Origin: Desulfovibrio gilichinskyi
GTDB taxonomy: Bacteria; Desulfobacterota; Desulfovibrionia; Desulfovibrionales; Desulfovibrionaceae
Assembly: GCF_900177375.1 (NCBI RefSeq)
Contig: NZ_FWZU01000003.1
Coordinates: 1 to 64,000, forward strand
Length of the DNA: 64,000 nucleotides
Direction of reading: 5' to 3'
In this document: piece by piece, positions 32,535 to 50,279 of the stretch
Numbering within the stretch: position 1 is the stretch's first letter
Layout of the letters: the number at the start of each line of letters is the position of its first letter
Translations under genes and position numbers: made by a program
Notes under the pieces: generated by a model
Told to the model about the DNA's origin: nothing
Database searches by the model: none
Seen by the model: only the letters and a program-made list of their open reading frames with translations

Positions 32535-32535
32535 T

Positions 32536-35091
32536 TTATACTCTCCCGTTCGGACAGCTGTTGTCCGGATCGATATCGGCGGCAGCCTTTGTTTCCTCGT
32601 CGGCTTGTTCACGCCATAGGTGTTCGATGTTAAATGGAGCCGCCAGTCCTCCTACATTTTGCCAGCCGGATTCAGGAGTTTTGGACAGGACGGCTGTGCG
32701 GTGGGCCATGTCCATGCTCTCTTGTAGTTTCACGCTGGCTAGGCCCTGACTTAACGGGACAAGTACAGTCTGTCCTTCCTCAATTCCCAGCCTTGCTGTT
32801 TCGTCCGGATGGAGCCACAGGACAGGCGCATTCAGTAATTTTTCTCCGAGCGGTCCTTCGTTAGCTAGCCTGTCAGAACCGAATGTACTGGCCGTGACCA
32901 ATATTTCTCCAGATTTATTCCCGTCATTTTTTTCAATGAAACTGGCCAGTGATTCAAGAGAAGGAAAAGGTGAAACAGGTACATCAGGAAGCATGTTGAA
33001 GCTCTCTGCGGACGTTGCTTGGTCCATGGCAGAGCGTAGGGCTGCATGGGAGTGGTGCTCGGATTTATCTGTTTTTTGCATCAACAGCTTTAACCAATGA
33101 CCGGCATTTTGCGGCCCGTTGCCCGTAAGTGGTGCGTCGGTATTCCTCGGTGGGTGAGAACCTTTTCCTGTCTGCGTTACCGGGGTGCCGCCCGCAAAGA
33201 CCGGCATCGCACGTTGCAGCCGCCCCTCGTTATTAATCAGGCAGCCGCCTGTTTCGAAAAGAGTACTCTGCGGGATAGCTATATCAGCCTTTTTCCAAGT
33301 GGCCGAGTCTATGCAATCCATGCAGACCAGCAGATCCAGTTTACCGAAACATTCGGCGATCCATTGCTCAGCGGGAAATTCCGTCAATGGATCATCCCCG
33401 ATACAGATCAGTCCCTTGATGGGTTGCGCGTTGTCCATAGGAGTTAAAAAATTTTGAAGACTGGTGGAATTTTTTGCGCCAAGAATCCCAGCTCCCATAG
33501 AATTTGCTTTGGGAAGTATGCAGAACATTCCGGCATCCATTCTATTTTCACTTCCAGTTTCTCGAAGTAGACGGGTTACTCCGGCTACAAGTGAAAGCCA
33601 GCCGGTGGGCATGGTGTCTGCGGAACAGATCAGCACCGGACGACGAGCTGAGGCCAGCGCCGCAGCAATGTTTGCCAGAGGTTCGGCTAAAGAAGTAAGT
33701 TTGTCGGTCTCAGAACTGGCCAATTCCCGCAGTTCCTGCCGGAAAACGGATGGTTCGCCCTGAAATTCGGTTTCCGGGAAAGCCTTGTCCAATAACGCAT
33801 CAATGGCCGCCGGGAGTTGATGCCGTGTTAACGGCAGGTGTATGGTTTCGCAGAGAAGATTCACTGGTCGTGGATCGAGCACTCCTATAATTGCTCCGGT
33901 ACGGGCCGCCTGACGCACGGCCAAGGCCGCCATGGGCCCCTCATGTAGCGGATCTGATCCCAATATCAGCACCATATCGGCCTCGCGCACCTGTCGCAGG
34001 GACCGACTGATATCTGTACCGAGCAGGGAAGCCGCTTCAAGGCAGGCTATCCGTTCTTCCTCGGTCATAAAAAAACTGGGTCCGGACAGTTTGAGGTTTG
34101 CGGCCAGTTCTTCGGCAGTCAGCATGTCCTCCAAAGTGCAGCGGGAGGAAACGTGAATGCCAACGGACTGAGGTCCGTGCTGCTCAAGTATCTCTCGTAT
34201 CCGCTTGATTGTTTCTTCGGCTCCGTGTTCCGGCGTGGTCGGTGTTCCCTTTACTCTCGTCTGTCTGGGACGTTCGGTAAGGGAAGCATATTCGAATCCG
34301 TAGCGGCCCCGGTCGCACAGGAAATCGCCGTTGATATTTTCGTTGTAGCGGTTTTCCACGCGTAAAACTTCACGGTAATGTACGGCTGGAAGGGTGTTGC
34401 AGCCCAGTGAACAGTGGGCGCAGATAGAAGGTTTGCGCTCCAGATCCCAGCGTCTGGCACGGTATCTGGCCGGTTTGTCTGTGAGGGTTCCGGTGGGACA
34501 TATTTCGCCGAGATTACCACTGAACGGGCTTTCCAAGCTGCCGGGTTCGAATCGTTGGTAGGTTACCCGCCCGGCGATGCCGAAGGTGCCGAAGTCCGTC
34601 CCGCCTGCATATTCACGATAGAATCTGACACAGCGGTAGCAGTGGATGCAGCGGTTCATTTCATGTTCTATGAGGTGGCCGAGATACTGATTTTTATAGG
34701 TTCGTTTGAGCCCGCGGAAGTTGCGCCGTCCATGTCCGCCTGACACGGTCATATCCTGAAGCAGGCAATGCCCTCCCTCATCACAAACGGGGCAGTCATG
34801 TGGATGACTGAGCATGAGCCATTCTATGACTTGAGCTCTGAAAGCTACAGCGTCGGGGTGGTCGGTGGAGATTATCATGCCGTCCCGCGCTTCGACCATG
34901 CAACTCATATCTAAATCTTTTTTGTTGCCTTTCAGAAATTTTACCGCGCACATGCGGCAGGCCCCCACCGCCCCGAGTGATTTGAGATAGCAGAAGCGTG
35001 GAATCATGATGCCGAGCCGTTCGGCCGCGTCAATAACCTTTGTCCCGGGTTCGACCTCCACTTCCTGTCCATCGATGATCAGTTTGGGCAT
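32536..35091 (-). CDS. nuoG: NADH-quinone oxidoreductase subunit G, 851 aa
   Basis: The iron-sulfur subunit. An N-terminal [2Fe-2S] domain (CYLKSLGAVGACRMC and a later Cys) is followed by the His/Cys cluster HPHDCPVCDEGGHCLLQ, CIHCYRCVRFYREYAGG, and a molybdopterin-type domain starting with CAHCSLGCNT. The long C-terminal half resembles an inactive molybdopterin oxidoreductase, as in E. coli NuoG, whose length this approaches. It passes electrons from NuoF towards NuoI. It lies 2 bp downstream of nuoF. Confidence 0.93.
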   Translation of the reverse strand: MPKLIIDGQEVEVEPGTKVIDAAERLGIMIPRFCYLKSLGAVGACRMCAVKFLKGNKKDLDMSCMVEARDGMIISTDHPDAVAFRAQVIEWLMLSHPHDCPVCDEGGHCLLQDMTVSGGHGRRNFRGLKRTYKNQYLGHLIEHEMNRCIHCYRCVRFYREYAGGTDFGTFGIAGRVTYQRFEPGSLESPFSGNLGEICPTGTLTDKPARYRARRWDLERKPSICAHCSLGCNTLPAVHYREVLRVENRYNENINGDFLCDRGRYGFEYASLTERPRQTRVKGTPTTPEHGAEETIKRIREILEQHGPQSVGIHVSSRCTLEDMLTAEELAANLKLSGPSFFMTEEERIACLEAASLLGTDISRSLRQVREADMVLILGSDPLHEGPMAALAVRQAARTGAIIGVLDPRPVNLLCETIHLPLTRHQLPAAIDALLDKAFPETEFQGEPSVFRQELRELASSETDKLTSLAEPLANIAAALASARRPVLICSADTMPTGWLSLVAGVTRLLRETGSENRMDAGMFCILPKANSMGAGILGAKNSTSLQNFLTPMDNAQPIKGLICIGDDPLTEFPAEQWIAECFGKLDLLVCMDCIDSATWKKADIAIPQSTLFETGGCLINNEGRLQRAMPVFAGGTPVTQTGKGSHPPRNTDAPLTGNGPQNAGHWLKLLMQKTDKSEHHSHAALRSAMDQATSAESFNMLPDVPVSPFPSLESLASFIEKNDGNKSGEILVTASTFGSDRLANEGPLGEKLLNAPVLWLHPDETARLGIEEGQTVLVPLSQGLASVKLQESMDMAHRTAVLSKTPESGWQNVGGLAAPFNIEHLWREQADEETKAAADIDPDNSCPNGRV

Positions 35092-35093
35092 TA

Positions 35094-36455
35094 TTATTTC
35101 CCCTCGCCGAGCATGTCGTTTTGTCCGGCTGTTCTTGGTGTAGCTTCGCTGCGGTCAAGTTTTCGCCAGTCGCCGGGCTTGTTTGTATTGGCTTTGAAGG
35201 GGCAGCCTCTTCCGTCCAGATGTTCGCGCACCTCGTCGCGGAAATGCGTGAGCAGTCCTTTGACCGGTGTGGCAGCACCCGGGGCAAATCCGCAATAAGC
35301 GTTGGCTAATCCGCCTGCTATCTGTTCCAGAAGTTCGAGGTCGCTTTCTCCTGCGTCGCCTTGCTCAATGCGTTGCAGGATGTGGCGCATGTAGGGAATA
35401 CCCTCTCTGCACGGAGTGCACCAGCCGCAGGATTCACGAGAAAAGTAGGTCATAATATTGATGGTGGCCTGCACCAGACAGGTGTTGTGATCGAAGACTA
35501 TAACACTGCCCGTGCCTAGGGAGAGTCCCTCTTTTTTCATGGAATCAAAGTCCATGGCTGTGTTCAGGAGTCGTTTAGGTACGAAGCTGGTGGAAGTGCC
35601 GCCCGGCAGACATGTTTTAAACTCGGCTCCGGGAAGCATGCCTCCGGCAGATTCGAAGATAATATCGCCTAGGCGGGTTCCGCACGGCAACTCGAAACAG
35701 CCGGGGGCTACCACCTCACCGCTGACGCAGTAAAGTTTGGTGCCGTCACCTGTCGGCGAGGCCGCAAGGGATTTGAACCAGTCCACACCGTTTTTGACGA
35801 TAAAAGGTGTGGAGGCCAGAGTTTCCACGTTGTTGACTACAGTCGGGTGATTCCACAAACCAGAATCGGTCATGTGCGTTGTTTTGTCAGGGTTGGGGCG
35901 TTTACCCATGATGGCATTTGCCTGAGCAGAACTTTCGCCGCAAATGTACCTTCCGGCGCTACGGTGAACCTGAATGTCAAAAGAAAAATCGGTGCCGAGG
36001 ATGTTTTTGCCAAGCAGGTTCGCTTCGCGGGCAACCTTCAGCTCTTGCTCAAGGAGTTTTGCGTCCGAATCGTAGGATGGACGGATGAAAAAAACGCCGT
36101 GGTCTGCCTGTATAGCGTAACCGGCCATAAGAATGCCTTCGATGACCAAATGAGGATCGGTATTGACCAAGATGCGATCCTTGAAAGTGCCTGGTTCCAT
36201 TTCATCTGTGTTGCATTGGATATAGCGTGGATGAGGCGCGTCCTTGTGTACAAAGCTCCATTTGCGCCCTGTGGGGAAACCTGCACCGCCGCGCCCGCGT
36301 AGCCCGGAATCCGAGACAATCTTGATGACTTCGTCAGGGCTCATGGTCAGGACAGCTTTTTCAAGTGCTTTGTATCCGCCGTTCGCCCGGTATTCGTCAA
36401 ATCCGGCGGGGCGGCAGTCAGCGCGTCGATTTTTTAAGAGAACCTGTTCACTCAT
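35094..36455 (-). CDS. nuoF: NADH-quinone oxidoreductase subunit F, 453 aa
   Basis: The NADH- and FMN-binding subunit. The nucleotide-binding GLRGRGGAGFPTGRKW is near residue 50, CNTDEMEPGTFKDR and ICGESSAQ follow, and the N3 [4Fe-4S] site SCGWCTPCREG is near residue 345 with a further Cys in AYCGFAPG. The usual GEET motif reads GESS here, a small deviation. The gene is 4 bp downstream of nuoE and part of the leftward operon. Confidence 0.94.
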   Translation of the reverse strand: MSEQVLLKNRRADCRPAGFDEYRANGGYKALEKAVLTMSPDEVIKIVSDSGLRGRGGAGFPTGRKWSFVHKDAPHPRYIQCNTDEMEPGTFKDRILVNTDPHLVIEGILMAGYAIQADHGVFFIRPSYDSDAKLLEQELKVAREANLLGKNILGTDFSFDIQVHRSAGRYICGESSAQANAIMGKRPNPDKTTHMTDSGLWNHPTVVNNVETLASTPFIVKNGVDWFKSLAASPTGDGTKLYCVSGEVVAPGCFELPCGTRLGDIIFESAGGMLPGAEFKTCLPGGTSTSFVPKRLLNTAMDFDSMKKEGLSLGTGSVIVFDHNTCLVQATINIMTYFSRESCGWCTPCREGIPYMRHILQRIEQGDAGESDLELLEQIAGGLANAYCGFAPGAATPVKGLLTHFRDEVREHLDGRGCPFKANTNKPGDWRKLDRSEATPRTAGQNDMLGEGK

Positions 36456-36459
36456 AGGA

Positions 36460-36960
36460 TTACCTGCATACGCTGAGTTCTATTGTGTCGTGATTTTCCC
36501 GTAGTTCGTCCAGAATGCAGTCTACTTTCTCAGGCGTCAATCTGCCGTAGTGTTTTCCGTTGATGAGCATGGCCGGAGCGTTGTGGCAGTTGCCTAGACA
36601 GGCTGTAGGTAAAATAGTGAATAATCCGTCTTCAGTGGTCTCCCCAAGCTTGACACTAAGTTTGCGGCAGAGATAGTCGAACAGTCCGTTTTCGTGATGC
36701 ATCCAGCAGGTAACACCGTCACAGACATGAATCACGAACCGCCCCAGAGGTTCTCGGTAGATGAAGTCGTAGAAGGTGGCCAGTTCTTCAAGTTCTACCA
36801 GTGTCTTTCCCGTCAGCCTCGCTGCGTGAGCCATGGCTTCGTCGGAAAAATAGCTGTAGTGACGCTGGAGAAGGAAGATGATGTCGATGAGTTTCTCCTC
36901 GACATGTTCAGCGTTTTTGACAAGGTCCTGTATGGTGGTTTCCAATTCTTGTGGCAGCAT
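36460..36960 (-). CDS. nuoE: NADH-quinone oxidoreductase subunit E, 166 aa
   Basis: The [2Fe-2S] N1a subunit. Ligands are visible in HVCDGVTCWMH and, about 36 residues later, in TACLGNCHNAPAMLINGKHYG. Length and order match NuoE. It works with NuoF and NuoG as the NADH-oxidising module. The start lies 8 bp after the nuoBCD stop. Confidence 0.93.
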   Translation of the reverse strand: MLPQELETTIQDLVKNAEHVEEKLIDIIFLLQRHYSYFSDEAMAHAARLTGKTLVELEELATFYDFIYREPLGRFVIHVCDGVTCWMHHENGLFDYLCRKLSVKLGETTEDGLFTILPTACLGNCHNAPAMLINGKHYGRLTPEKVDCILDELRENHDTIELSVCR

Positions 36961-36968
36961 TTCTTCCC

Positions 36969-39416
36969 CTAACGGTCCAGATCGGGCGCGATGTAATCCA
37001 CTGATCCCATGATAGCGACAAAGTCAGCCAGCGTGTGCCCTACAGCCATAAGCGGCAGAGCCTGCACCGAAGTGTAACCCGGTGAGCGCATGTGTAATCG
37101 GTAGGGCATGTTGCCTCCGTCACTGACAATGTAAAATCCCTGTTCCCCTCTGGGGGCTTCGGTTGCGGCGTAAGCCTCTCCGGCGGGAACCTTGGGGCCG
37201 CGGGTGGTGTTGATAAAATGATGGATCAGGCTTTCAATGTCATGCAAAGTCTCCCGCTTGTCAGGGATGCAGTATCGGTAGTCCTTGGATTTGAATCTGC
37301 CAGAAGGCATCCATTGCAGACATTGGGCAATGATTCTATTGCTTTGGAGCATCTCGTCAAAACGGACCTCGTAGCGGGCCAGACAATCGCCATTGTCTCT
37401 TGTTGGTACATCAAATTCGTATTGTTCGTATCCGGAATAGGGCATTACTTTGCGCAGGTCGCGCGTGGAGCCGCATGCCCGCAGGTTCGCCCCTGAAATA
37501 CCGTAGTCTATGGCGTCTTCCAGAGATAGATTCCCGATGCCTTTGATTCTGGCCCGGACGATGGGGTTACCGGAGATCATTCGTTTGTAACCTTCTATCC
37601 GTTCCGGAAACACGCGTACAAAATCGTTCACCAGTTTGTCCCAGCCCTCGGGAAGGTCCATGGCCAATCCACCGATGCGCAACCATGCCGGATGGAGTCG
37701 CGCTCCGGTGATGGTTTCCATGATGTCCATAACCTGTTCGCGTTCACGGAAGGTGTGGAAGACCGGGGTGATCATGCCCAGATCCTGAACCATTGTGCCG
37801 AGCCAGAGTAAATGGTTGGAGATGCGATAGAATTCGGCGAGCATCACACGTACACACTGCGCGCGGTCGGGCACCTTTACATCGCAGAGTTTTTCCACGG
37901 CCAGAAGGTATGTCAGATTGTTGGCCGCACCGCTCAGGTAGTCCAATCTATCTGTGTAGGGAATGAACTGATGCCAAGACTGGTGCTCGGCAATTTTTTC
38001 TACTCCGCGATGGTGGAAACCTATGTCTGCGGTCATATCCACGATTTCTTCGCCATACATTTCGAGGATAAAGCGGACTAACCCGTGGGTGCTGTAGTGA
38101 TGAGGGCCGATATTGAGTACGAATTCGCGTTTGGTGGGCGTGGCGGCATGGCTTTTTTTCAACAAACTGGCAGCATCTTCCGGTTCGTGCCGTCTGGCAT
38201 CTTCGGCCAGATACGGTTCCATATCCGTTGCGCGCTGGGGTTCGCTTTTCCGAAGAGGATGGCCTGACCATTCCTCGGGCATGATCAACCTACGCAGGCC
38301 CGGATGGTTGCTGAAGCGGATGCCGAACATATCCCATATTTCGCATTCGTACCAGTTGGCACTGGGCCAAACCCTGGTGACACTCGGGAGTTCAGGTTCC
38401 TGTCCGCTAACTGGCACATGCAGCCGTATATATTCCAGAGAACTCAAGGATGTCAGGGTATAGATCACCGTGTAATCGTGTTCCGGCCGTACCTTGCGTG
38501 CGCTCTCATCCACTGCGGTTAAGTCTTCGAGCCTTTCGAAGCGGACCGGGCTTTCGTGCTTCAGGAAGTCCAGAATTTCCACTATATGGCTGGCCGTGAC
38601 TGTGAGCGTGGGCATGTCCACGGGGGTTTTATGCCAGACAATCAGGTCACCGAAGCGGTCTGCCAGAGCTTGGCGAATGGATTCGTGAACCTTGGAAAAA
38701 TTGAAAACAGGCGGCGGCGGTGCCCACATATCGTTGGATCTTGAATCCGCGAACTCCGGCGGGGTTACTGAGGTTCCGCGAGCCGGAATTCCGGCCATGC
38801 CCGGGCCGCGGGTGTCGCGGTCTTTGCTGTCTCCGGGAACGAGTATGTCGTCTCGGCCTCCGGCATGTCCGCCTTTTAGGTTGAACGCTGGTCGCAAGGG
38901 ACGGTTTTTCTGGCTGATCATGTCCTGCAGGGTAATCAGCCCGTGCATCAGGGCTTCCGGTCTAGGCGGACAGCCTGTGACGTACACGTCCACCGGAATA
39001 ATCTGATCCACGCCCTGAACCACACTGTATACGTCATACATGCCGCCGGTGTTGGCGCAGGAACCCATGGAAATGACCCACTTAGGCCGGGGCATCTGTT
39101 CATAGATTCGCTGGACCATGGGCGCGGCTTTCTTGAATACCGTACCCGAGACCACAAGGAGATCGGCCTGACGGGGGGAACCGCGCAGCACTTCAGCACC
39201 AAAGCGGGCAATGTCATAGAGCCCGGTAAATACGGTAGCCTGCTCCACAAAGCAGCATGAAAGTCCGAAGAACAGAGGCCAGAGACTGTTTTTCTGACAC
39301 CAGTTGAGAACAATATCGCCAAGGGTTGCCTTTTGCGGCAGCATGAACGGAGCTTCAGACTCGCCGTTGACGGCGGCCTGTATAGCCCGGTCTAGTGCTT
39401 CTTTTTCATGCCCCAT
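36969..39416 (-). CDS. nuoBCD: trifunctional NADH-quinone oxidoreductase subunit B/C/D fusion, 815 aa
   Basis: Three subunits in one chain. Residues 1 to about 165 are NuoB, with the N2 ligands CC in GLSCCFVE, then SMGSCAN and [12 protein letters not shown] Gly/Pro/Asp-rich linker (about 165-225) follows. Residues about 230-395 are NuoC ([29 protein letters not shown]). Residues about 425-815 are NuoD ([24 protein letters not shown], the end PDLDR). NuoCD fusions are usual in enteric bacteria; BCD fusions are rarer but known. The start overlaps the nuoA end by 25 bp. Confidence 0.93.
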
Positions 39417-39805
39417 TCAAGGCCTCCTTTGCGCCAGACCCAGAAGAGTCCGAGCAGCAGTACACCTATGAAAAAGGTCATCTGTGCCCAGCTGGCCCAT
39501 GTCAGATTTTTGAACGATACAGCCCAGGAAACCACATAAACAGCTTCAACATCGAAGAGTAGAAAAAAAACGGCTACAAGCCAGAAGGGTGCAGGGTAGC
39601 TGAGCTGAGCAGATCCAGATGGGATCACTCCGCATTCGTAGGGTCGCCCTTTTTCTCCTTCATCTTTCCTGCGCATTATGATCGTGGACAGGGCAAGCAG
39701 TGCTGCTACAAGCCCGGCTGCTAGCACGGCAAAGACTATGAAGGAAAAAACACTTGGATCCCAAGCATTGAAAGAAGCGGATATGTGTTCCGGCGTATTC
39801 TGCAT
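39392..39805 (-). CDS. nuoA: NADH-quinone oxidoreductase subunit A, 137 aa
   Basis: Small three-helix membrane subunit. It contains [16 protein letters not shown] (Cys in the conserved loop) and [15 protein letters not shown]. It is first in the leftward operon. The start at 39805 faces the cydA promoter region across about 300 bp. Confidence 0.93.
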
Positions 39806-40137
39806 CAGACGTTCATCCCTGCCCGAGTTCTTTTGGTATCGGGACGTTGCATGTGTTTTCCCTGCGTTCCGGCAGGTAGTCTACACCCTTTTTTGTAATG
39901 CGATACAGTTTATTAAACAAGGGTGTTGCGTAAAATTTTATAAATCAGGTTGTATTTAGTGTTTATGGTATGGTAATTGGTCGAAATAACAAGTTGCTTT
40001 TGTAGCTGATTTGTTGAAGCCTAAAGAATAGTCACAAAGGCGACTGACTGAGCCGCCGGATTGTATGAGGTCAGTCCGCTATGATAAAAGTGTTTTGTCT
40101 GTAAAAAATGTTGAACTTCAATAATGGCATGGGGATA
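39806..40137. promoter_or_regulatory. divergent control region between nuoA and cydA
   Basis: About 330 bp without a gene. It must hold promoters for both halves of the complex I / cytochrome bd block. The clearest element is an inverted repeat, ACACCCTT (39883-39890) and AAGGGTGT (39919-39926), 28 nt apart. It lies about 80 bp upstream of nuoA and could be an operator or an mRNA leader hairpin. No clean -35/-10 can be assigned. Confidence 0.5.
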
Positions 40138-41523
40138 ATGGAACCACTATTTACGGATCACATATTCCTCTCAAGACTTCAGTTTGCTCTGGTCACTATG
40201 TTTCATATCATCTGGCCGGTTTTGACTATCGGTCTGGCCATGTATATCTTTCTGACCGAGCTGGTCTGGGTACGCACCGGCCGGAAGGAATGGTATCAGC
40301 AGGCTCGGTTTTGGAGTCGGTTCTTTCCGCTCATCTTCGCTATGGGCGTGATCTCCGGCATTCCGTTGGAATTTCAGTTCGGAACTAACTGGTCACTGTT
40401 TTCCGAGGCCACAGGCGGTTTCCTGGGCCAAATACTGTCAGTGGAAGCTATGTCCGGTTTTCTGCTGGAATCTATTTTTCTGTATCTCATGGTTGCTGGC
40501 TGGCAACGGTTTTCACCCCAGCTGCATCTTTTCGCCACAGGTATGGTTGTCCTCGGTTCGATCCTCTCCGCCTTTTGGATTATGGTTGCCAATTCCTTTA
40601 TGCAGACCCCGAGGGGCGGGCAGGTGGAGAATGGTGTTTTCGTGGTATCCGACTGGTTCTCCGCTATCTTCAATCCTGATCTGTTCTCTTCCTTTCCTCA
40701 TATGCTGCTCGCCTGTCTGACCGGTACAGCCTTTGTCTTGGCCGGGGTTGCTGCATGGCATCTACTGCGTTCCTTGCACACGGAATTTTACCTGCGGGTC
40801 TTTAAAACAATGGTCGCGGTCGGTCTTTTTCTGGCGTTGATTCAGGCTGGAACAGGCGACCTGTCAGGACAGAATCTGTCCAGATACCAGCCGGCTAAAC
40901 TGGCAGCCACAGAGGCTTTCTGGGATACCAACCAAGCAGGGCAGGGCGCAGCATGGTCAATTTTCGCATGGCCGGATGTGCAGAATGAGCGCAATTCGGT
41001 TGAACTTCGAATCCCTTACGTGCTGAGTATGTTGGCCACCCATAATCCTTTTGGTCAAGTGATCGGCCTTAAGGATATTCCTAGGAATGAGCGTCCGCCT
41101 ATCGTGCTGATTTTCTATTCATTCAGAGTTATGGTTATCATCGGTATGTTGATGATTCTGGCCGGAACTCTGGCGGCTCTGGCTTGGCGTAGAGGGCTTT
41201 TTCATCCTGAGCGCATAGCTTCCAACCGTAAATTGCTCAAGTTCTTCATCTGGCTGGCTCCGTTGTCCATAGTTTCCATCTGGGCTGGGTGGATTATGCG
41301 TGAGGTGGGGCGGCAGCCTTGGGTGCTCTACGGAATGCTGCGTACAAAAAACATGGCCTCGCCCCTTACTTCGGAGGCTGTTGGCTTATCACTTTTCATT
41401 TTTATTGTTGCGGGCCTGCTTTTGTTTGGAGTGTTTTTGTTCTTTGCCCGTCAGATTTTGCGTAAAGGTCCTGACAACGGGACATTGCCGCCTGAATCAT
41501 GTGTTATCAGGAGGCCGTCATGA
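40138..41523 (+). CDS. cydA: cytochrome bd quinol oxidase subunit I, 461 aa
   Basis: The haem-bearing subunit of cytochrome bd. The N-terminus LSRLQFALVTMFHIIWP holds His23, the expected haem b595 ligand. VEAMSGFLLESIF carries both conserved Glu (103 and 111), which serve proton and haem functions in relatives. GRQPWVLYGML is the C-terminal signature. It is shorter than the E. coli protein, so the quinol loop is probably of the short type. The start at 40138 (MEPLFT) is likely from family alignment; an in-frame ATG at 40108 is the alternative. It leads the rightward operon and its stop overlaps the next start as ATGA. Confidence 0.92.
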   Translation: MEPLFTDHIFLSRLQFALVTMFHIIWPVLTIGLAMYIFLTELVWVRTGRKEWYQQARFWSRFFPLIFAMGVISGIPLEFQFGTNWSLFSEATGGFLGQILSVEAMSGFLLESIFLYLMVAGWQRFSPQLHLFATGMVVLGSILSAFWIMVANSFMQTPRGGQVENGVFVVSDWFSAIFNPDLFSSFPHMLLACLTGTAFVLAGVAAWHLLRSLHTEFYLRVFKTMVAVGLFLALIQAGTGDLSGQNLSRYQPAKLAATEAFWDTNQAGQGAAWSIFAWPDVQNERNSVELRIPYVLSMLATHNPFGQVIGLKDIPRNERPPIVLIFYSFRVMVIIGMLMILAGTLAALAWRRGLFHPERIASNRKLLKFFIWLAPLSIVSIWAGWIMREVGRQPWVLYGMLRTKNMASPLTSEAVGLSLFIFIVAGLLLFGVFLFFARQILRKGPDNGTLPPESCVIRRPS

Positions 41524-43064
41524 CTCTCGTTGACCTATGGTTCGTTCTTCTTGGCTTTGTCCTTTTTATGCATCTTGGTCTGGGGAGCATTGATTTGGGG
41601 CTCTGCCTCTTTTCTCTGTTTGTGGACGCGGAAAAGGCCGAGTCAATGCTCGCCTCCGTGGACTCCGTCTGGCATACAAATCAGACTTGGCTGGTGGTGC
41701 TCGGCGCAGTGCTTTTCGGCGCCTTTCCCAAAATTTACGGTGCAGTTTTATCCACCCGTTACGGGCTGGTGGTGCTGCTGTTGCTGGCCCTCGGGTTACG
41801 CGGTTTGGGAATGGAATACAGGCACCGTGCAAAGCGTTCGGTTTTCTGGCTGCGTCTTGCCGGCTGGGGTGGGACTGCTGTTTTGGTTGCCGAGGGAATT
41901 CTACTCTGGAACATTGTGCTAGGCGGGAATGTTTCCTCTGCATGGTTCGGTTTGCAATCTTTGGTTCAGCCACGATATTTTTCGGCAGTACTCCTACTTT
42001 TATCTAGCGGATTACTTATGGGCGGTTCTTGGTGGCTGACTTCTTCCGACCGCAGCGGAGCTGATAGAAATGTCAGAATAATTGTCCAGATCAGCGGGGT
42101 TTTTGTTGTCCTCAGCGGCCTTTTCTGCTGCTTCCAGTTGATGCAGACCGGCGAAATTGAATTGCCACTTGTCTGGAGACCTTTTCTCGTTTTGACCGTG
42201 CTCGTCATGGCTGACCTGACTATCCTGTTCGCAAGCCTTCGGCCTTCGTGGCAAGGATCTCCGTTGCCGTGGGGACTTGCTTTGACAGGCTTGGTCCTGA
42301 CCGCTTGCGGGGTTCTTATTTACGTAAAGACGGGTCCAACTCTGTCTGAACTCGCCAGCGGAGATTTGACATTTCTTACCATCGCGATGTGTGTACTGCT
42401 GCCGCCGCTACTTGCTTTCCAGATTTTTCAATACCGTCTGGAACGACGCGGACAGGAACCTGTCTGGAAAGTTCCTGCTCCTGCCAGCAATGCGAAAGTA
42501 GGGATATCTTTTGCTCAGCTGACAGAAGTGCTGAACACGATGATACAAGGAGCACTAGGGCTGTTTCAGGGGTACGCAGAGACCTTTAAGGCTATGTTTA
42601 CCCGGCCCATCACCGTGCAGTATCCCGAGGAAAGACGCACGCCCCCGCCGCGGTCCCGTGCGCACATCGTGCTGACACGCTCTCCGGACGGCGATGAACG
42701 GTGCGTGGCCTGTTATCTTTGTTCCGCAGCCTGTCCGGTCAGCTGTATCTCTATGCAAGCCGATACCCGCGCGGACGGTCGGCGGTACGCCGCATGGTTC
42801 CGCATTAATTTTGCCCGTTGTATTTATTGCGGGCTGTGTGAGGAAGCGTGTCCGACACTGGCCATCCAGCTTACACCGGAGTATGAGTTTGCCTCGGACT
42901 CCATCCTTAATCTGGTGGCTGAAAAGGAAGACCTGCTGGTGGATCATGGCGGCAAAGACATGGATTATGATTTCTACAGCCATGCCGGGGTGGAAGAGAA
43001 GTATCCTCAAAATGAACACGATGGCGAAGAGCCACCTGTAAACTTCAAGAGCAACCTGCCATGA
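41520..43064 (+). CDS. cydB-nuoI: CydB-NuoI fusion: cytochrome bd subunit II joined to complex I subunit I, 514 aa
   Basis: One continuous frame with two unrelated parts. Residues 1 to about 320 are CydB-like, with eight or nine helices, GSIDLGLC (the conserved Asp is Asp25) and VWHTNQTWLVVLGAVLFGAFP, LGLRGLGMEYRHRA. The usual Asp of the VWDxNQ motif is His52 here. Residues about 335-380 are the amphipathic NuoI leader ending MFTRPITVQYPEE. Two [4Fe-4S] motifs follow: CVACYLCSAACP (Cys395, 398, 401, 405) and CIYCGLCEEACP (Cys434, 437, 440, 444). The start at 41520 has AGGAGG in front and overlaps the cydA stop. No separate nuoI is present, so the fusion should supply both subunits and hold the oxidase against complex I. 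Confidence 0.92.
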   Translation: MTLVDLWFVLLGFVLFMHLGLGSIDLGLCLFSLFVDAEKAESMLASVDSVWHTNQTWLVVLGAVLFGAFPKIYGAVLSTRYGLVVLLLLALGLRGLGMEYRHRAKRSVFWLRLAGWGGTAVLVAEGILLWNIVLGGNVSSAWFGLQSLVQPRYFSAVLLLLSSGLLMGGSWWLTSSDRSGADRNVRIIVQISGVFVVLSGLFCCFQLMQTGEIELPLVWRPFLVLTVLVMADLTILFASLRPSWQGSPLPWGLALTGLVLTACGVLIYVKTGPTLSELASGDLTFLTIAMCVLLPPLLAFQIFQYRLERRGQEPVWKVPAPASNAKVGISFAQLTEVLNTMIQGALGLFQGYAETFKAMFTRPITVQYPEERRTPPPRSRAHIVLTRSPDGDERCVACYLCSAACPVSCISMQADTRADGRRYAAWFRINFARCIYCGLCEEACPTLAIQLTPEYEFASDSILNLVAEKEDLLVDHGGKDMDYDFYSHAGVEEKYPQNEHDGEEPPVNFKSNLP

Positions 43065-43672
43065 CCATGTATGCTGTACTTTTTTATATTTTGGCCGCAG
43101 CGACCTTGCTTTGCTCTCTGATGGCAGTGACGCGGCGAGTTTTGATTCATGCCGTAGTATGGATGGTGGGCGCTCTCATTTGTACGGCCCTGATTTTTAT
43201 GTTGCTCGGTGCTCCTTTGCTGGCCGGATTTGAGGTCATTATTTACGCCGGAGCCATCATGGTTCTTTTTCTGTTTGTCATTATGCTGATGGCTCAGAAA
43301 CCGAGCGAACAGCTTCAAGTGGAAGGTTTAATCCTCCGCCGACTGCGTTCCCGTATGTTCTGGCCTGCCATCTGGGGGCTGATCGGGGTTTTTGCCTGTA
43401 TGGCCCTTATTTCTTTTGACCCTTCCAACTCCACACCGCTGACTCCGGGGCGGGTTTCGCCGCACGATCTCGGTGCCTGGGTCTTTAATAATGCATGGCC
43501 CGCTGTGGAAGCAATATCTCTGCTTCTTCTAGCCGCTCTGGCCGGGGCTCGTTATCTGGGGTTACCTTTAGTGCGTTCAGATCGGCCGGACAATGTAGGA
43601 CTGAGTCTGAACTCTGACTTGCCTTCCTGTCCTGTGAACGCGGATGGTGATGATGCGGAGGAACAGCTATGA
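43061..43672 (+). CDS. nuoJ: NADH-quinone oxidoreductase subunit J, 203 aa
   Basis: Five-helix membrane subunit with the NuoJ block FEVIIYAGAIMVLFLFVIMLM. It overlaps the fusion gene by ATGA and the next gene likewise, so translation is coupled. The polar C-terminal 40 residues vary in the family. Confidence 0.92.
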   Translation: MTMYAVLFYILAAATLLCSLMAVTRRVLIHAVVWMVGALICTALIFMLLGAPLLAGFEVIIYAGAIMVLFLFVIMLMAQKPSEQLQVEGLILRRLRSRMFWPAIWGLIGVFACMALISFDPSNSTPLTPGRVSPHDLGAWVFNNAWPAVEAISLLLLAALAGARYLGLPLVRSDRPDNVGLSLNSDLPSCPVNADGDDAEEQL

Positions 43673-43974
43673 TCGTGCCCTTAGAGCATATCCTGCTCTT
43701 TGCAGCGATGTTATTTTTCATCGGTCTGGTCACGGTGGTAGCTCGGCGTAACCTGATTATGATCTTGCTCGGCGTGGAAGTCATGCTCAATGCTGCGGGC
43801 GTGGTTTTTGTAGCCGCATCCCTGCGCTGGTGGGATATTTCAGGACAGGGAATGGTGTTGTTCATCATGGGAGTTGCTGCCGCAGAGATCGCAGTGGGAT
43901 TGACTCTGGTTTTCAGGGTATGGCGGAAAAATAAGAGTTTGAACCCGGACTCGTTGAAAACGTTCAAGGAATGA
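43669..43974 (+). CDS. nuoK: NADH-quinone oxidoreductase subunit K, 101 aa
   Basis: Three-helix subunit of the proton-pumping arm. NLIMILLGVEVMLNAAGVVFV carries the buried Glu of helix 2 and AAAEIAVGLTLVFRVWR the Glu of helix 3. Length is that of the family. Confidence 0.94.
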   Translation: MIVPLEHILLFAAMLFFIGLVTVVARRNLIMILLGVEVMLNAAGVVFVAASLRWWDISGQGMVLFIMGVAAAEIAVGLTLVFRVWRKNKSLNPDSLKTFKE

Positions 43975-43978
43975 GTGC

Positions 43979-45883
43979 ATGACCAGTATTCTTTGTCTGA
44001 CTCTTTTCGCTCCGCTCGCTGGAGCCGTGGTACTGGCCCTGATGGGGCGAATCATGTCGCGCAGGCTGTCAGGGCTGCTTGCCTGTATGGCTGTGGCCTG
44101 TTCTTTGACCGGTGCGCTTTTGGGATGGGGCCAGTTGCAGGGTACTCAGGATTTAAGCATTCATCTTTTCGACTGGTTCGCAGCCGGTGGTCTTCATGTT
44201 TCGGCGACCGTGCTCTACAATCCTCTGTGCGCGGTCATGGCCACTATGGTGGCCTTCGTCTCCCTGATTATCCATATACATTCCCTGTATTTTATGCGGG
44301 ATGATGACGGATGGATCCGCTATTTCTGTTACCTGAATCTGTTTGTCTTTTTCATGCAGTCCATTGTCATGGCAGACGATCTTGTTTTTCTATTCATGGG
44401 ATGGGAGGGCGTTGGTTTCTGTTCCTTCGCTTTGATAGGGTTCTGGTATACTGATCCTCAAAACGTCATGGCGGGCAAGAAAGCCTTTCTGATCACTCGT
44501 ATCGGTGACGTGGCCTTTCTGGGAGCACTGGCGGTGCTCTTTAATGTTACAGGCAACCTGAGTATCCAGCATCTTTCTGCATCAGCTCCGGGCATGGAGC
44601 CGGCCACACTGACTCTGGTCGGGTTGCTCCTGCTGGTGGCCGCCACCGGCAAGTCCGCCCAGTTGCCGCTGTTGGTCTGGCTTCCTGATGCTATGGCAGG
44701 CCCTTCTCCTGTTTCGGCCCTGATCCATGCCGCGACCATGGTGACTGCCGGAGTTTACCTGCTTATCCGTACGTTTCCGGCACTGCTGTACGCACAACCT
44801 TTCGTCTTGGAAACAGTGGCGGTGGTAGGAGCCCTGACGGCCTTTGTGGCAGCCTGTTCGGCTCTGGTCCAACATGACATCAAGCGTGTTCTGGCATGGT
44901 CCACCATCAGTCAGGTAGGCTACATGGTTTTGGGCGTTGGTGCAGGTGACCCTTCGGGGAGTTTCTTCCACCTGCTTGTGCATGCTTTTTTCAAGTCATT
45001 GTTGTTTATGGTGGCGGGTATTGTTATTCAGGCTCTGCATGAAGAACACAATATTTTCCGAATGGGCGCAAGGGTGCGTAAAGTCGTACCCGGAGCGGCT
45101 CCGGCATTTTTCTGCGGCGCTGCCGCTCTGGCCGGATTACCGCCTTTTGCCGGATTCTTCAGCAAAGGGCGCATTCTGGAAAATGCTATGGCTATGGCTC
45201 GAACCGGCGAGGGCGTTTGGGTATTTGTCTGGGCTGCAGGCACGATTACGGCGCTGATTACAGCTGTATATAGTTTTCGTGTTTTTTTACTGGCCTTTAC
45301 CGGTAGTCCGGCGCTTGTTCCTGAAACGGGAACGAAAAAAACGCCCGCCCTCATGCTTCATGTGCTCTGGCCGTTGGCTTTGCTGGCTGTAACTGCCGGA
45401 ATCCTGAATCTGCCGGAGCATATTGCCAATCTACTCGGGATGCAGACTGATTGGTTGGATCATTTTCTAGGTATGTCCCCGGCCACGCAGCAAGTCATGA
45501 CTGGTGATTTGTCCGAATGGGTTGATGCTGTGTTGGCTGTATCAGGGCTGGGCATTGCCCTGTTCTTGTACGGCCCTTGGCGTAAACTCCGTAATCCCTT
45601 TTCTGATCGAGGGCTGTCTCGTTTTCTGCTTGATGGTTGGAGGCTCGACAGGCTCTACATGACGGCGGTGGCCTACCCCTATCGTTCGGCGGCAACGCTA
45701 CTCTGGAAAAATGTGGAGGATAAATCGGTGGATGGTGCGGCCTTAAGTCTGGGGTCAGCGGCCCTGCGAGCTGGTGGCCGAATATGCCAATGGGGTGCTA
45801 ATCGGCTTTCCTCATATCTGTTTTGGCTTCTGCTGGGTGTTGTTGCCATGCTTATCGTTATGGCCGCTATAGGAATCAGGTGA
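43979..45883 (+). CDS. nuoL: NADH-quinone oxidoreductase subunit L, 634 aa
   Basis: The large antiporter-like subunit with the lateral helix. Key stretches are FMGWEGVGFCSFALIGFW (pump Glu), TGKSAQLPLLVWLPDAMAGPSPVSALIHAATMVTAGVYLL (with the broken helix and Lys) and DIKRVLAWSTISQVGYM. The usual C-terminal long helix is present. Four bases after nuoK. Confidence 0.94.
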   Translation: MTSILCLTLFAPLAGAVVLALMGRIMSRRLSGLLACMAVACSLTGALLGWGQLQGTQDLSIHLFDWFAAGGLHVSATVLYNPLCAVMATMVAFVSLIIHIHSLYFMRDDDGWIRYFCYLNLFVFFMQSIVMADDLVFLFMGWEGVGFCSFALIGFWYTDPQNVMAGKKAFLITRIGDVAFLGALAVLFNVTGNLSIQHLSASAPGMEPATLTLVGLLLLVAATGKSAQLPLLVWLPDAMAGPSPVSALIHAATMVTAGVYLLIRTFPALLYAQPFVLETVAVVGALTAFVAACSALVQHDIKRVLAWSTISQVGYMVLGVGAGDPSGSFFHLLVHAFFKSLLFMVAGIVIQALHEEHNIFRMGARVRKVVPGAAPAFFCGAAALAGLPPFAGFFSKGRILENAMAMARTGEGVWVFVWAAGTITALITAVYSFRVFLLAFTGSPALVPETGTKKTPALMLHVLWPLALLAVTAGILNLPEHIANLLGMQTDWLDHFLGMSPATQQVMTGDLSEWVDAVLAVSGLGIALFLYGPWRKLRNPFSDRGLSRFLLDGWRLDRLYMTAVAYPYRSAATLLWKNVEDKSVDGAALSLGSAALRAGGRICQWGANRLSSYLFWLLLGVVAMLIVMAAIGIR

Positions 45884-45890
45884 GGTTAGC

Positions 45891-47348
45891 ATGAACGATT
45901 TTCCTTTACTCACCTCATTGATTCTACTTCCGATCTTTGGCGGCCTTGTCGGTTTATTTTTTCATCACCGTCCAGATCAGGCACGGTTCATTTGTCTGAT
46001 AACTGCTTTGGCTGAATTGGCGTTAGTGCTCCTGCTCCTGCCGTTGGTCATGAATTCGAATGAACTGGCGGATCGGTTTGACTGGATTCCGCTGTTGCAT
46101 GTGCAGTATTCGCTGGTCATGGACGGACTGAGTTATGTTCTGGTTCTGCTCACTGCCCTATTGGGTGTACTCGGCATCCTTACGTCTTGGCGGGAGATCC
46201 GCGAAGGCGTAGCTGTGTTCCACTTTTTGTTACTGGCTGCACTTAGCTCAGCCATAGGCGTGTTTCTGGCCCGTGATTTGCTGCTTTTTTATTTGTTCTG
46301 GGAAGCCCAGCTCATTCCCATGTTTTTTATTATCGGTCGATTCGGACATGAGCGGCGGCGATATGCAGCCCTTAAATTTTTTGTTTTCAGTATGGTCGGA
46401 GGACTCCCTCTGCTGCTGGCCATCATCTGGCTTATGTTGACCGGGGTTGATCCCTCTCTTGCCGCGCTCACAGCTTCTCCTGTGCAAGGAACCGTGCAAA
46501 TCTGGTGTGCAGCTGCTTTCGTTCTGGCCTTCGGGGTTAAGACTCCCATGCTGCCGGTGCATACATGGTTGCCGGATGCTCATACTCAGGCTCCGACCGC
46601 AGGCAGTCTGTTATTGGCCGGGGTTTTGCTTAAAACCGGGGCTTATGCCATGCTGCGCTGGGCTATCCCGCTGTTTCCTCAAGCTATGACTGCGGCGGCC
46701 CCATGGCTCGCAGGGCTGGGTCTTGCTGGATTGTTCTACGCCTCATGGGTTGCGCTGGCTCAGCAGGACGCCAAACGGCTGGTGGCTTATTCCAGTGTGG
46801 CGCACATGGGGCTTATCATGTTTGCTATGTTCGCTCATAACCGGATCGGCTTGTCCGGAGCCGTGGTACAGATGGTCAGCCACGCTCTGACTACCGGAGC
46901 CCTGTTCGTCATGGTGGGCATGCTGGCTGAAAGGTTTAACTCAAGGCAACTCTCTGACTTCGGTGGACTTTGGACCAAGATGCCAGTGTATGGCGGATTC
47001 ATGCTTTTCTTTGCCATGGCCTCAGCCGGATTGCCAGGTCTGTCCAATTTCGTTGGTGAACTGATGATTCTACTCGGTTCTTTCCGGGTCTACCCTGTTG
47101 GAGCCTCTCTGGCCTTTTTCGGCATTGTGGTGGGGCTGGCTTATGTGCTCCGTTTGCTTCAAGGTACGATTCTCGGAAAACCCGGTCCGCTGACCGAATC
47201 CGCTCAGGTCCTCGATCTAGATGGTCGAGAAATTTTGATTCTGTCTGTATTTGCCCTTGCTGTTCTGCTGATTGGAATTCATCCGGCACCGTTATTGAAA
47301 TTGATCAATGAACCGCTAAGTGCCTTGGCAACTAATTGGCCTCGATAG
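45891..47348 (+). CDS. nuoM: NADH-quinone oxidoreductase subunit M, 485 aa
   Basis: Second antiporter-like subunit. LFYLFWEAQLIPMFFIIG has the pump Glu, and KTPMLPVHTWLPDAHTQAP and DAKRLVAYSSVAHMGLIMF are NuoM signatures. About 14 helices. It starts 7 bp after nuoL. Confidence 0.94.
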   Translation: MNDFPLLTSLILLPIFGGLVGLFFHHRPDQARFICLITALAELALVLLLLPLVMNSNELADRFDWIPLLHVQYSLVMDGLSYVLVLLTALLGVLGILTSWREIREGVAVFHFLLLAALSSAIGVFLARDLLLFYLFWEAQLIPMFFIIGRFGHERRRYAALKFFVFSMVGGLPLLLAIIWLMLTGVDPSLAALTASPVQGTVQIWCAAAFVLAFGVKTPMLPVHTWLPDAHTQAPTAGSLLLAGVLLKTGAYAMLRWAIPLFPQAMTAAAPWLAGLGLAGLFYASWVALAQQDAKRLVAYSSVAHMGLIMFAMFAHNRIGLSGAVVQMVSHALTTGALFVMVGMLAERFNSRQLSDFGGLWTKMPVYGGFMLFFAMASAGLPGLSNFVGELMILLGSFRVYPVGASLAFFGIVVGLAYVLRLLQGTILGKPGPLTESAQVLDLDGREILILSVFALAVLLIGIHPAPLLKLINEPLSALATNWPR

Positions 47349-47363
47349 GCAAAGAGAGTGAAC

Positions 47364-48776
47364 ATGTACGATATACAGTTATTTTCACCGCATCTGTTGC
47401 TTACCCTGGGCATTCTGGTCTGTTTTGTTTCGGGAACGATCTTTAAACGTCCGGCAGGGCTTTATGCTGTCTCTCTGATATCTTTGTTGTCGGCAGGAAT
47501 CATGGGGCTGATCTTTTACCCTGCGCACGGACCGGAAATGGCGGCATTGAAACCGTTTCTGGCAACAGGAGCACTGACCTCCTATTTTCTTCCTTTGGTC
47601 TGTGGCTTGGGGGTGGGAGCGTTACTTTTCTTCGGTCCCGAACTTAAGCAGGAAGATCGAAATCATGATGACGAACTTTACGCTCTGTTTCTCACTGCTG
47701 TGCTCGGTGGTTTGCTATTGGCCGGAGGACAGAGCTGGCTGGCTTTCTTTCTGGGACTGGAATTGTTGTCTTTGCCTCTGTATATTCTCATCGGACTGCG
47801 CAAGGATAGCGGCGGCAACGAGGCTTCAGTTAAATATTTTGTCATGGGTGCCACGGCCAGCGGAGTGCTGCTTTTCGGTATAGGGCTGATCTATGCCGGG
47901 TCAGGCACGCTGGACATCGTGTCCAGCCTTCGCGCTCCACAGGGGAGCGGCACTGTTCTTCTCGGTCTGGGCATGGTTCTGACCGGAGTGGCTTTCAAAC
48001 TTTCTCTTGTTCCGTTTCATCTTTGGGCACCGGACGTATACCGCGGGGCTCCGGAATCGGTGTCGGCTTTGTTGACCTCTATGGTCAAAGCCGCAGTCGT
48101 AGGGGGGCTTTTGCGTATTGCTCTGGCACTGGGGCCGGAATTCTGGCCTGCCACGGCTCCTGTTCTTTGGGGACTGGCTGCTTTGACCATGGTGGCCGCG
48201 AATCTGGCCGCTTTGGCTCAGACCAGTATTAAGAGGATGCTCGGTTTTTCCTCGGCTGCTCACATGGGGTATCTGATTATGGGTGTGCTTTGTATCAATG
48301 AGGCTGGGCCCGGACCGGTTATTTTCTATGCAACGGCGTTGGCAGTAATGGATCTGGCCGCTTTTGGCGGCTTGTCCCTGCTGAACGCCGGAGCTGAACC
48401 GGTGGACAGCCTTGAATCACTGCGCGGGCTCGGCAAGGCTCGTCCTTGGGGAGGGATTCTCTTGGCCGTCGGTTTAACCGGATTGGCCGGATTGCCTCCA
48501 ACCGCCGGTTTCACCGGCAAGTTGCTTCTTTTCAGGTCCACCATCATGGGCGGGTACCCTTGGCTGGGTGTCATTGGTATTTTGGGTGCGGCCTTGTCTG
48601 TGTTTTACTATCTGCGCCCTCTGGCTGCACTCTATTTTGAAGAGCGTGAAATCACGGCAGCCCGCGAACGATTGACAGTTTCTGGTGGTGTGGCCATTTT
48701 CCTTCTCCTACTGTTGATCATCGGGCTTGGACTTATGCCTTCGCCCATCTTGCAATTCATGCCGATACATCCGTAA
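47364..48776 (+). CDS. nuoN: NADH-quinone oxidoreductase subunit N, 470 aa
   Basis: Third antiporter-like subunit. FFLGLELLSLPLYILIGLRK and KLSLVPFHLWAPDVYRGAPESVSALL are characteristic, as is KRMLGFSSAAHMGYLIMG. The ATG at 47364 is preceded by GAGAG; a GTG two codons earlier is possible. It is last in the operon; a hairpin terminator follows. Confidence 0.94.
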   Translation: MYDIQLFSPHLLLTLGILVCFVSGTIFKRPAGLYAVSLISLLSAGIMGLIFYPAHGPEMAALKPFLATGALTSYFLPLVCGLGVGALLFFGPELKQEDRNHDDELYALFLTAVLGGLLLAGGQSWLAFFLGLELLSLPLYILIGLRKDSGGNEASVKYFVMGATASGVLLFGIGLIYAGSGTLDIVSSLRAPQGSGTVLLGLGMVLTGVAFKLSLVPFHLWAPDVYRGAPESVSALLTSMVKAAVVGGLLRIALALGPEFWPATAPVLWGLAALTMVAANLAALAQTSIKRMLGFSSAAHMGYLIMGVLCINEAGPGPVIFYATALAVMDLAAFGGLSLLNAGAEPVDSLESLRGLGKARPWGGILLAVGLTGLAGLPPTAGFTGKLLLFRSTIMGGYPWLGVIGILGAALSVFYYLRPLAALYFEEREITAARERLTVSGGVAIFLLLLLIIGLGLMPSPILQFMPIHP

Positions 48777-48777
48777 T

Positions 48778-48802
48778 AGGCGACCCCCATGAGGGCCGCC
48801 TT
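48778..48802. terminator. shared terminator of nuoN and the aldehyde dehydrogenase gene
   Basis: AGGCG-CCC / GGG-CGCCT hairpin followed by TGATATTTT on the plus strand. The gap between the two convergent genes is only 48 bp, so it probably serves both. Confidence 0.6.
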
Positions 48803-48824
48803 GATATTTTCGTGTGGATACCGG

Positions 48825-50216
48825 CTAGAAGTCACCGTCGATGTCAGTCACGCCTACCACCTTGTGGTTGACAAATTCCTTGATGCCGAGATCCAATAGC
48901 TCGCGGCCGTAACCGGAGTTGCGGATTCCTCCGAATGGAATGTCCGCTTTGACCACGGTTGGGTGGTTGACGAAAACCATGCCGGTGGAAACCTTGCGGG
49001 CCACCTCTTCACCGTGTTTCAGATCGGAGGTAAAGACTGATCCGCCCAGACCGAATGGGGTGTCATTGGCGATGGCGATGGCGTCTTCTTCGTCCTTGGC
49101 CCTAAATAGCATAGACACTGGACCGAAGAATTCCCAATAGCGGGCAGGATTGTCCAGAGTCACATTTTCCAGAATAACAGGCTGCACGAAAGCACCCTGT
49201 TTCGGAATCTTGGGACCGACTTCCGTGGCGGTTGCACCTAATTCTATGGCTTTGGCAATCTGTTTTTTAAGCAGGTCAGCGGCCTTCTGAGAAGAAAGAG
49301 GGGCCAGAGTAGTTTCTGGATCGAACGGATCGCCTGCCTTGAGGTTCTTCACTCCTTCAATGTATTTTTCGCGATATTGATCGTAAAGTTCGTCTACGAT
49401 TATCATGCGCTTGGAAGCGCAGCAGACTTGGCCGCCGTTAAAGTGGCGTCCGAACACGCCCCATTTGACGGTCTTGTCCAGCTCAGCGTCGGCCAGAACA
49501 ATAAACGCATCGTTACCGCCCAGCTCCAATGTAGATTTCTTAAGGGCCTTGGCGGCCTGAACTGCAACCACGGCCCCGGCTCTTTCTGAACCTGTCAGGG
49601 CAACGCCCCGGACTCTGGGGTCACTGATAATGGTGTCTAGCTGATCGCGGGTGGCATAGAGGTTTTTGAATACACCGGCAGGCAGACCTGCTCTGGTTAA
49701 TAATTTTTCCATGGCGGCTGCGGACTGCGGCACGATGGAGGCATGTTTAAGCAGAACTGTGTTACCTGCGGAAAGCTGTGGAGCTATTATCCTTGCAACT
49801 TGGTAGTAAGGGAAGTTCCAAGGCTCAATGGCCAACAGAACTCCGAGAGGCTCGGCCAGCAGATGGTATTCGCCCTTGGTGGCAGGATTCACATCAAGTT
49901 TGCGTGGGGCCAAATGAGACTCGGCGTGCTCGGCGTAGTAGTCGAAAATGTCTGCCGAAAGGTCTACTTCTCCCTCGGCTTCGGCCGTGATTTTGCCCAT
50001 TTCTAAGGTCAGCAGTTTGGCATATTCACTTTTTTCGTTGCGCAATATCTCTGCAGCCTTGTGCATGACGGCAGCCCGCTTTGCAAAGCTGGAGTTTTTC
50101 CAAGATTCAAAGGCCTTCTGGGCATTGTCCAATGCCAGATTTACCTCAGCATCTGTAGAGTCATTAAAGGTAGTGACCGTTTTACCGGTAAAAGGATTAA
50201 CAGTAGCGTAACTCAT
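48825..50216 (-). CDS. Sad/YneI-type succinate-semialdehyde dehydrogenase-like protein, 463 aa
   Basis: NAD(P)-dependent aldehyde dehydrogenase. The cofactor site VALTGSERAG, the catalytic Glu in TLELGGNDAFIVL and the catalytic Cys in GGQVCCASKRMI are present. Length and the start SYATVNPFTGKTV fit the E. coli Sad group. I chose the ATG at 50216, with AAGGAG at good spacing, over a frame that begins 21 codons upstream and would run through the operator palindrome. The substrate is uncertain; succinate semialdehyde or another short aldehyde is likely. It converges on nuoN. Confidence 0.85.
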   Translation of the reverse strand: MSYATVNPFTGKTVTTFNDSTDAEVNLALDNAQKAFESWKNSSFAKRAAVMHKAAEILRNEKSEYAKLLTLEMGKITAEAEGEVDLSADIFDYYAEHAESHLAPRKLDVNPATKGEYHLLAEPLGVLLAIEPWNFPYYQVARIIAPQLSAGNTVLLKHASIVPQSAAAMEKLLTRAGLPAGVFKNLYATRDQLDTIISDPRVRGVALTGSERAGAVVAVQAAKALKKSTLELGGNDAFIVLADAELDKTVKWGVFGRHFNGGQVCCASKRMIIVDELYDQYREKYIEGVKNLKAGDPFDPETTLAPLSSQKAADLLKKQIAKAIELGATATEVGPKIPKQGAFVQPVILENVTLDNPARYWEFFGPVSMLFRAKDEEDAIAIANDTPFGLGGSVFTSDLKHGEEVARKVSTGMVFVNHPTVVKADIPFGGIRNSGYGRELLDLGIKEFVNHKVVGVTDIDGDF

Positions 50217-50228
50217 GAAGAATCTCCT

Positions 50229-50246
50229 TGGGTTAAATTTAACCCA
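50229..50246 (-). promoter_or_regulatory. 18-bp perfect palindrome in the dehydrogenase leader
   Basis: TGGGTTAAATTTAACCCA is a perfect palindrome directly before the ribosome-binding site of the aldehyde dehydrogenase gene. A second pair, TTGACA at 50250 and TGTCAA ending at 50279, flanks the likely promoter. A repressor operator is the simplest reading. Confidence 0.55.
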
Positions 50247-50279
50247 GTCTTGACAATGTGCTGACAGGGAGTGTGTCAA

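Follow-up and report, generated by a model that had tools for sequence, protein, structure and literature searches.

A cydB–nuoI gene fusion in Desulfovibrio gilichinskyi, a candidate covalent link of cytochrome bd to complex I that would derive from an older cyd–nuo linkage

The first 64,000 nucleotides of contig NZ_FWZU01000003.1 of Desulfovibrio gilichinskyi (the whole stretch of DNA analyzed here, referred to below as the window) carry a gene at 41520–43064 in which cydB, encoding a subunit of the terminal oxidase cytochrome bd, runs in one frame into nuoI, encoding a subunit of respiratory complex I. As an open frame the fusion is real and is confirmed in one genome; it is a new fusion made of known parts. 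With modest confidence, and on the strength of sequence and gene order, we favor the interpretation that its product would be a covalent cytochrome bd–complex I tether built on an older linkage between the cyd and nuo genes. A more demanding form of this interpretation, in which CydB–NuoI would hold complex I and cytochrome bd obligatorily at 1:1 as a covalently tethered NADH:O2 respirasome, with the oxidase lying close to the quinone portal in the heel region of complex I, is put forward tentatively. NuoI is located near that heel. The fused gene and its parts are as follows.

41520–43064, plus strand: fused cydB-nuoI gene, 514 amino acids, a single stop-free frame, the one full-length match to be had within its own genome
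41532–42440, plus strand: CydB part, residues 5–307 (PF02322; AlphaFold; Foldseek matches to solved CydB)
42441–42533, plus strand: junction, residues 308–338, made up of the old CydB tail and the beginning of the NuoI N-terminal helix
42534–43061, plus strand: NuoI part, residues 339–514, with two 4Fe-4S motifs (NF004536 above cut-off; cysteine positions)

A sequence-only reading of this DNA had described a single 514-residue frame in which CydB is followed by a linker and then by NuoI in full length, its two [4Fe-4S] motifs included, and that description holds. The translation is free of stops, and each half exceeds the cut-off of its family: residues 5–307 score 115.6 bits with PF02322 (Pfam; cut-off 35.6), and residues 339–514 score 241.8 bits with NF004536, the NuoI equivalog model (cut-off 212). 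The NuoI part retains both CxxCxxCxxxCP motifs (Cys 395/398/401/405 and 434/437/440/444). Solved CydB chains take the top Foldseek ranks for the CydB part (7ose_B, E 1.5e-9), over which the AlphaFold model reaches a predicted local distance difference test score (pLDDT) of at least 70 in 27 of its first 30 blocks of ten residues. The model fits eight membrane helices plus a helical hairpin, which we take to be periplasmic from the E. coli topology. Between the two parts lies a linker of 20–30 residues, of which 309–330 fall under pLDDT 50 and are predicted to be disordered. Translation would begin at ATG 41520, which follows a strong Shine-Dalgarno sequence, AGGAGG (−10.3 kcal/mol); because this site sits before ATG 41520, the 521-residue open reading frame from ATG 41499 was set aside in favor of the 514-residue form. 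The unbroken frame makes programmed frameshifting superfluous, and ATG 42490 (ATGCGAAAGTAG), likewise set aside, is out of frame and meets a stop after three codons.

The claim that the CydB C terminus and NuoI are both cytoplasmic agrees with the charge distribution. With helix limits set by hand, the cytoplasmic loops of the CydB part hold 13 K/R versus 4 D/E and the periplasmic loops 4 versus 8, which most likely places the CydB C terminus on the cytoplasmic side, where NuoI works. The same orientation is found in an E. coli CydB-eGFP fusion, in which the C-terminal domain is cytoplasmic and the protein is active, the NADH oxidase activity of its membranes being 95% of that of the parent (PMC4082705).

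The partners that both halves would require are encoded around the fused gene.

40108–41523, plus strand: cydA, 471 amino acids (PF01654; alignment to 6rko_A)
43061–48776, plus strand: nuoJ, nuoK, nuoL, nuoM, and nuoN (family matches)
31545–39805, minus strand: the divergent arm, comprising nuoA, nuoBCD (a single 815-residue gene), nuoE, nuoF, nuoG, and nuoH (family matches)

CydA is indeed directly upstream, as had been noted, its gene overlapping the cydB start by ATGA and its product matching PF01654 with 489.5 bits. It is identical to E. coli CydA (6rko_A) at all 10 positions checked (H33, E113, E121, H198, K264, E269, R340, M342, E399, and R402), which we take to be the key heme-ligand and Q-loop positions. 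With neither of the two E. coli-type NCBIfam CydA models does it come near the cut-off (251 versus 1025 and 245 versus 968). All members of the 14-subunit complex I, NuoA to NuoN with the NADH module EFG included, are present, NuoI only as the fusion. BCD, H, E, G, K, L, M, and N, plus I as the fusion, score above their NCBIfam cut-offs; NuoF stays under its own (478 versus 559), NuoJ does so as well (79.9 versus 192) and passes Pfam PF00499, and NuoA, with no NCBIfam match at 1e-20, passes Pfam PF00507.

Comparison with relatives indicates how the two genes came to be neighbors. The whole fused protein served as query against family, order, and phylum genome sets, which overlap and include the genome of the window. 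At 1e-40, matches were obtained in 27 of the 288 family genomes and 28 of the 348 order genomes; at 1e-25, at least 161 of the 395 phylum genomes, which were sampled evenly from a larger group, gave one. Among the matches listed, the only unbroken full-length one is that of the genome itself; the match in G215 covers residues 2–514 with one internal TAG. Of the 26 other family genomes that matched, 14 had their neighborhoods read, the remaining 12 having given a NuoI match only. Four of the 14 (G215, G223, G225, and G249) share the layout of the window, with nuoG-F-E-BCD-A running divergently from cydA-cydB-nuoI-J-K-L-M-N, and keep cydB and nuoI as separate genes. In all four, nuoBCD forms one open frame, and NuoI is 76–83% and CydB 42–55% identical to the corresponding part of the fused protein; nuoH was seen in one relative locus (L038), cut at its edge, since the stretches end there. 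The other ten neighborhoods show an ordinary nuoA–nuoN row in which nuoH adjoins nuoI, with no cyd gene between. Because separate cydB and nuoI genes occupy the same layout in four relatives, cydAB was probably placed within a split nuo locus before the fusion arose.

A cyd–nuo association also appears beyond these relatives. An alignment-based CydB scan of genome contigs, which reaches close relatives of the query, gave 14 loci, none with nuoI behind cydB, and 12 of them have no nuo gene in the stretch examined, some of these stretches being short or holding a partial cydB. In locus L062 cydAB is divergent from nuoA, and in L063 a nuoN–I row converges on cydAB; this recurrent adjacency suggests a recurring functional link. 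In genomes G399 and G619, cydB lies about 6 kb from nuoI. The same contig collection, scanned with the fused protein and again within reach of close query relatives, gave no relative, and none of 153 matching records in a plasmid collection covers 80% of the query; the first of these has no annotated nuo gene in the 8 kb around cydB.

The junction itself differs from its counterparts in more than one respect. In G223, G225, and G249 the cydB stop overlaps the nuoI start (ATGA) after a strong ribosome site (−11.2, −11.2, and −12.0 kcal/mol, respectively). Relative to this form, the window shows a net gain of one nucleotide, the cydB stop is gone, the nuoI ATG is replaced by ATA, and the ribosome site is weaker. 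From a shared CAATACCG motif to the nuoI start there are 74 nt in all three relatives of genus g37, the nearest carrier genus, versus 75 nt in the window, where by alignment ATA 42504–42506 occupies the position of the relatives' ATG. The site before this ATA scores −5.2 kcal/mol, compared with a background median of −3.0 and a 25th percentile of −4.7 (n = 1,000 random positions). In G215, cydB and nuoI already share a frame, with one TAG between them (L037, 9048–10640) and a weak nuoI site (−3.3), and that lineage is one substitution short of the same kind of fusion. With a codon usage table learned from 11 other genes of the surrounding block, the fused frame is best in 16 of 19 scanning windows, those starting at 42360–42585. 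A promoter/terminator scan, with counts of 7 versus 2.8 and 17 versus 6.7 in shuffles and promoter-like matches inside genes included, was not used as evidence.

Elsewhere in the genome, the fused protein has few counterparts. A whole-genome search returned seven matches at E 0.001. Besides the fusion itself, these are a NuoI-like protein, the CydB encoded by a second cydAB, and four weak ones confined to the 4Fe-4S part (E 4e-6 to 1e-4). The statement that there is no other nuoI stands, within this search, for the complex I type, of which the fusion is the sole example found. The NuoI-like protein, of 140 residues, is encoded on contig C3 at 131.1 kb; it is 33% identical and falls below every NuoI cut-off among the 25 of 33 families listed. 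It sits in a cluster of NuoB-, NuoD-, NuoH-, and NuoL(Mrp)-like genes (L049, 9549–14675; C3, about 131 kb), which probably encodes an energy-converting hydrogenase-related complex, and it is unlikely to serve complex I. The second, ordinary cydAB is on contig C4 at 225.8 kb (TIGR00203, 282.8 bits), with no nuo gene in the surrounding 19.5 kb read. A close relative of its CydB, 60–62% identical, occurs in all four cyd–nuo relatives and hence in five of five genomes counting the present one.

The fused gene and its partners lie in a block at 31545–50279 that stands out in composition, with a GC content of 51–54% in the nine 2-kb steps of 32001–50000 versus 36–45% in the other 23 steps of the window. 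Three further features belong to the block or its left edge.

48825–50279, minus strand: aldehyde dehydrogenase of the succinate-semialdehyde type, in the same high-GC block
30900–31440: broken transposase (HTH_21 match at 31075–31428), between the CRISPR array and nuoH at the left block edge
30427–30816: CRISPR array of six 36-nt repeats at a spacing of 70–71 nt, left block edge

The dehydrogenase adjoins nuoN in two of the four relatives (L038 and L040), where it is 82–85% identical. None of 16 congeners has a match at 1e-40; in g37, 3 of 36 genomes match at 1e-20. An empty site was not recovered in the congeners: four of them (G201, G203, G205, and G207) match both flank genes strongly, and in these the two genes are far apart or on separate contigs. 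The case for acquisition therefore draws on composition, distribution, and similarity, by which the block was probably acquired. Farther left, outside the block, are a reverse transcriptase–Cas1 fusion of 874 residues (25590–28214, plus strand) and, preceding it, a borderline Cas6-like stretch (25.0 bits at a cut-off of 25).

Together, these data lead us to propose the following route and function. A divergent nuo block containing cydAB, with cydB and nuoI already neighbors, would have been acquired from, or be shared with, a relative of the same family. In the present genome the tail of cydB would then have shifted by a net one base, losing the cydB stop and bringing nuoI into frame, with the nuoI ATG changing to ATA and its ribosome site weakening. 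The resulting single chain, of about 57 kDa, would pair through its CydB half with CydA in the membrane and fold through its NuoI half into the cytoplasmic arm of the 14-subunit complex I, a disordered linker of about 22 residues joining the two. In such a 1:1 pair, complex I would oxidize NADH and reduce a membrane quinone, presumably menaquinone, and cytochrome bd would reoxidize the quinol with O2. The tether would leave the chemistry of both enzymes unchanged, keeping them close and coupling NADH oxidation to O2 removal. A fixed NADH:O2 supercomplex, as first suggested from the sequence, is plausible, and rapid oxygen removal may be its role. An oxygen-defense role is reasonable, since many sulfate reducers possess bd oxidases (PMC11451228) and the one of Desulfovibrio vulgaris has been proposed to maintain a reducing environment when O2 is low (PMC4383621).

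Several observations weigh against the tether. A single genome carries the fusion, with no second example among the matches listed for the 288 family, 348 order, and 395 phylum genomes. The fused CydB part does not reach the stricter TIGR00203 model (55.1 versus a cut-off of 117.3), which marks it as a short, divergent CydB. The NuoI part is poorly predicted, both alone (mean pLDDT 41.5) and in the full model, so its model carries no claim. Weak ribosome sites are frequent in the block, those of nuoH, nuoF, cydA, nuoJ, nuoN, and the dehydrogenase all being weaker than −5.2; together with the −3.3 of nuoI in G215, this confines the ribosome-site argument to the comparison with the g37 form. In-frame internal starts are present at GTG 42528 (+0.2) and ATG 42540 (−0.5), both lacking a ribosome site, and an in-frame CTG at 42561 has a good one (−7.7 kcal/mol). 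Finally, the last three codon usage windows, inside NuoI, give no decision, two of them slightly favoring another frame, and across 42405–42494 the fused frame leads the +1 frame by about 1–3 bits, so this stretch by itself does not exclude a slip.

The internal starts bear on an alternative that we judge unlikely, in which the fused gene is real and free NuoI, perhaps also free CydB, arises by initiation at one of these three codons or by cleavage of the linker, the fusion being wholly or partly bypassed. GTG 42528 and ATG 42540 both precede the NuoI family core, and the product from the GTG, at 178 residues, resembles the 180-residue E. coli NuoI chain; several genes of the block also begin without a strong site, and the disorder predicted for the linker would suit cleavage. 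On the other hand, the GTG and ATG scores compare poorly with the background median of −3.0, and the CTG, a rare start codon, would truncate the NuoI N-terminal helix despite its good site. Moreover, NuoI of the relatives starts upstream of all three codons, at or before the position of the ATA.

Quite improbable, in our estimate, is a sequencing or assembly error, whereby a one-base insertion in the record masks two separate genes. The sequence-only reading had pointed to residues 320–335 as the place where a stop might be hidden, and the +1 frame does carry a TAG there, at 42499–42501; the interval from cydB to the nuoI start exceeds that of the three g37 relatives by exactly 1 nt, and the frames are weakly separated by codon usage over about 42405–42494. 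Yet a single-base slip accounts for the lost stop and not for the lost ATG: with ATA left unexplained, the first start available to nuoI would be GTG 42528, and the evidence thus leans to a real fusion. The linker is, in addition, poorly conserved, which makes the 1-nt difference just a net value, and the genome, in 14 contigs and 99.94% complete, says nothing direct on base errors. That the acquired block is decaying, with the fusion a harmless or damaging accident in a little-used cluster, is likewise improbable, for although the patchy distribution in congeners and g37, the second cydAB, and the transposase remnant at the left edge would fit it, the remaining block genes are open and match their families and the CydA ligands are kept.

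If the tether we favor exists, oxygen removal in this anaerobe would be wired to NADH oxidation and not solely to the shared quinone pool. The functional gain from respiratory supercomplexes is disputed, and a natural oxidase–complex I fusion would offer a fixed pairing for direct comparison with the homologous unlinked proteins of the relatives. The locus would also illustrate a stepwise route to fusion, from cyd beside nuo, through translational overlap, to one chain. The open-license literature searched (titles and abstract openings, mostly of top-ranked matches) describes no CydB–NuoI or other oxidase–complex I fusion.

Among the closest known systems are those of the four same-family relatives, which have the same gene order and divergent nuoG–A arm and differ in keeping cydB and nuoI separate, by an ATGA overlap or an in-frame TAG. 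In E. coli, supercomplexes of cytochrome bd with the dehydrogenases for formate or succinate (Sousa and others, cited in PMC4082705) likewise set the oxidase beside an enzyme that feeds it. Those associations are noncovalent, whereas here the partner would be complex I and the link covalent. The E. coli CydB-eGFP protein (Lenn and others, cited in PMC4082705) also bears a cytoplasmic domain on the CydB C terminus, in that case an engineered and unrelated partner. Within the class, a complete complex I with fused BCD has been reported for Desulfovibrionia (PMC12361115), a fusion that the window shares; the nuo operon of D. gigas is described as being without nuoEFG (PMC4287179), which the window has. 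NuoBCD and NuoCD fusions, like the present one, merge neighboring respiratory subunits, but they do so within one complex, whereas CydB–NuoI joins two enzymes.

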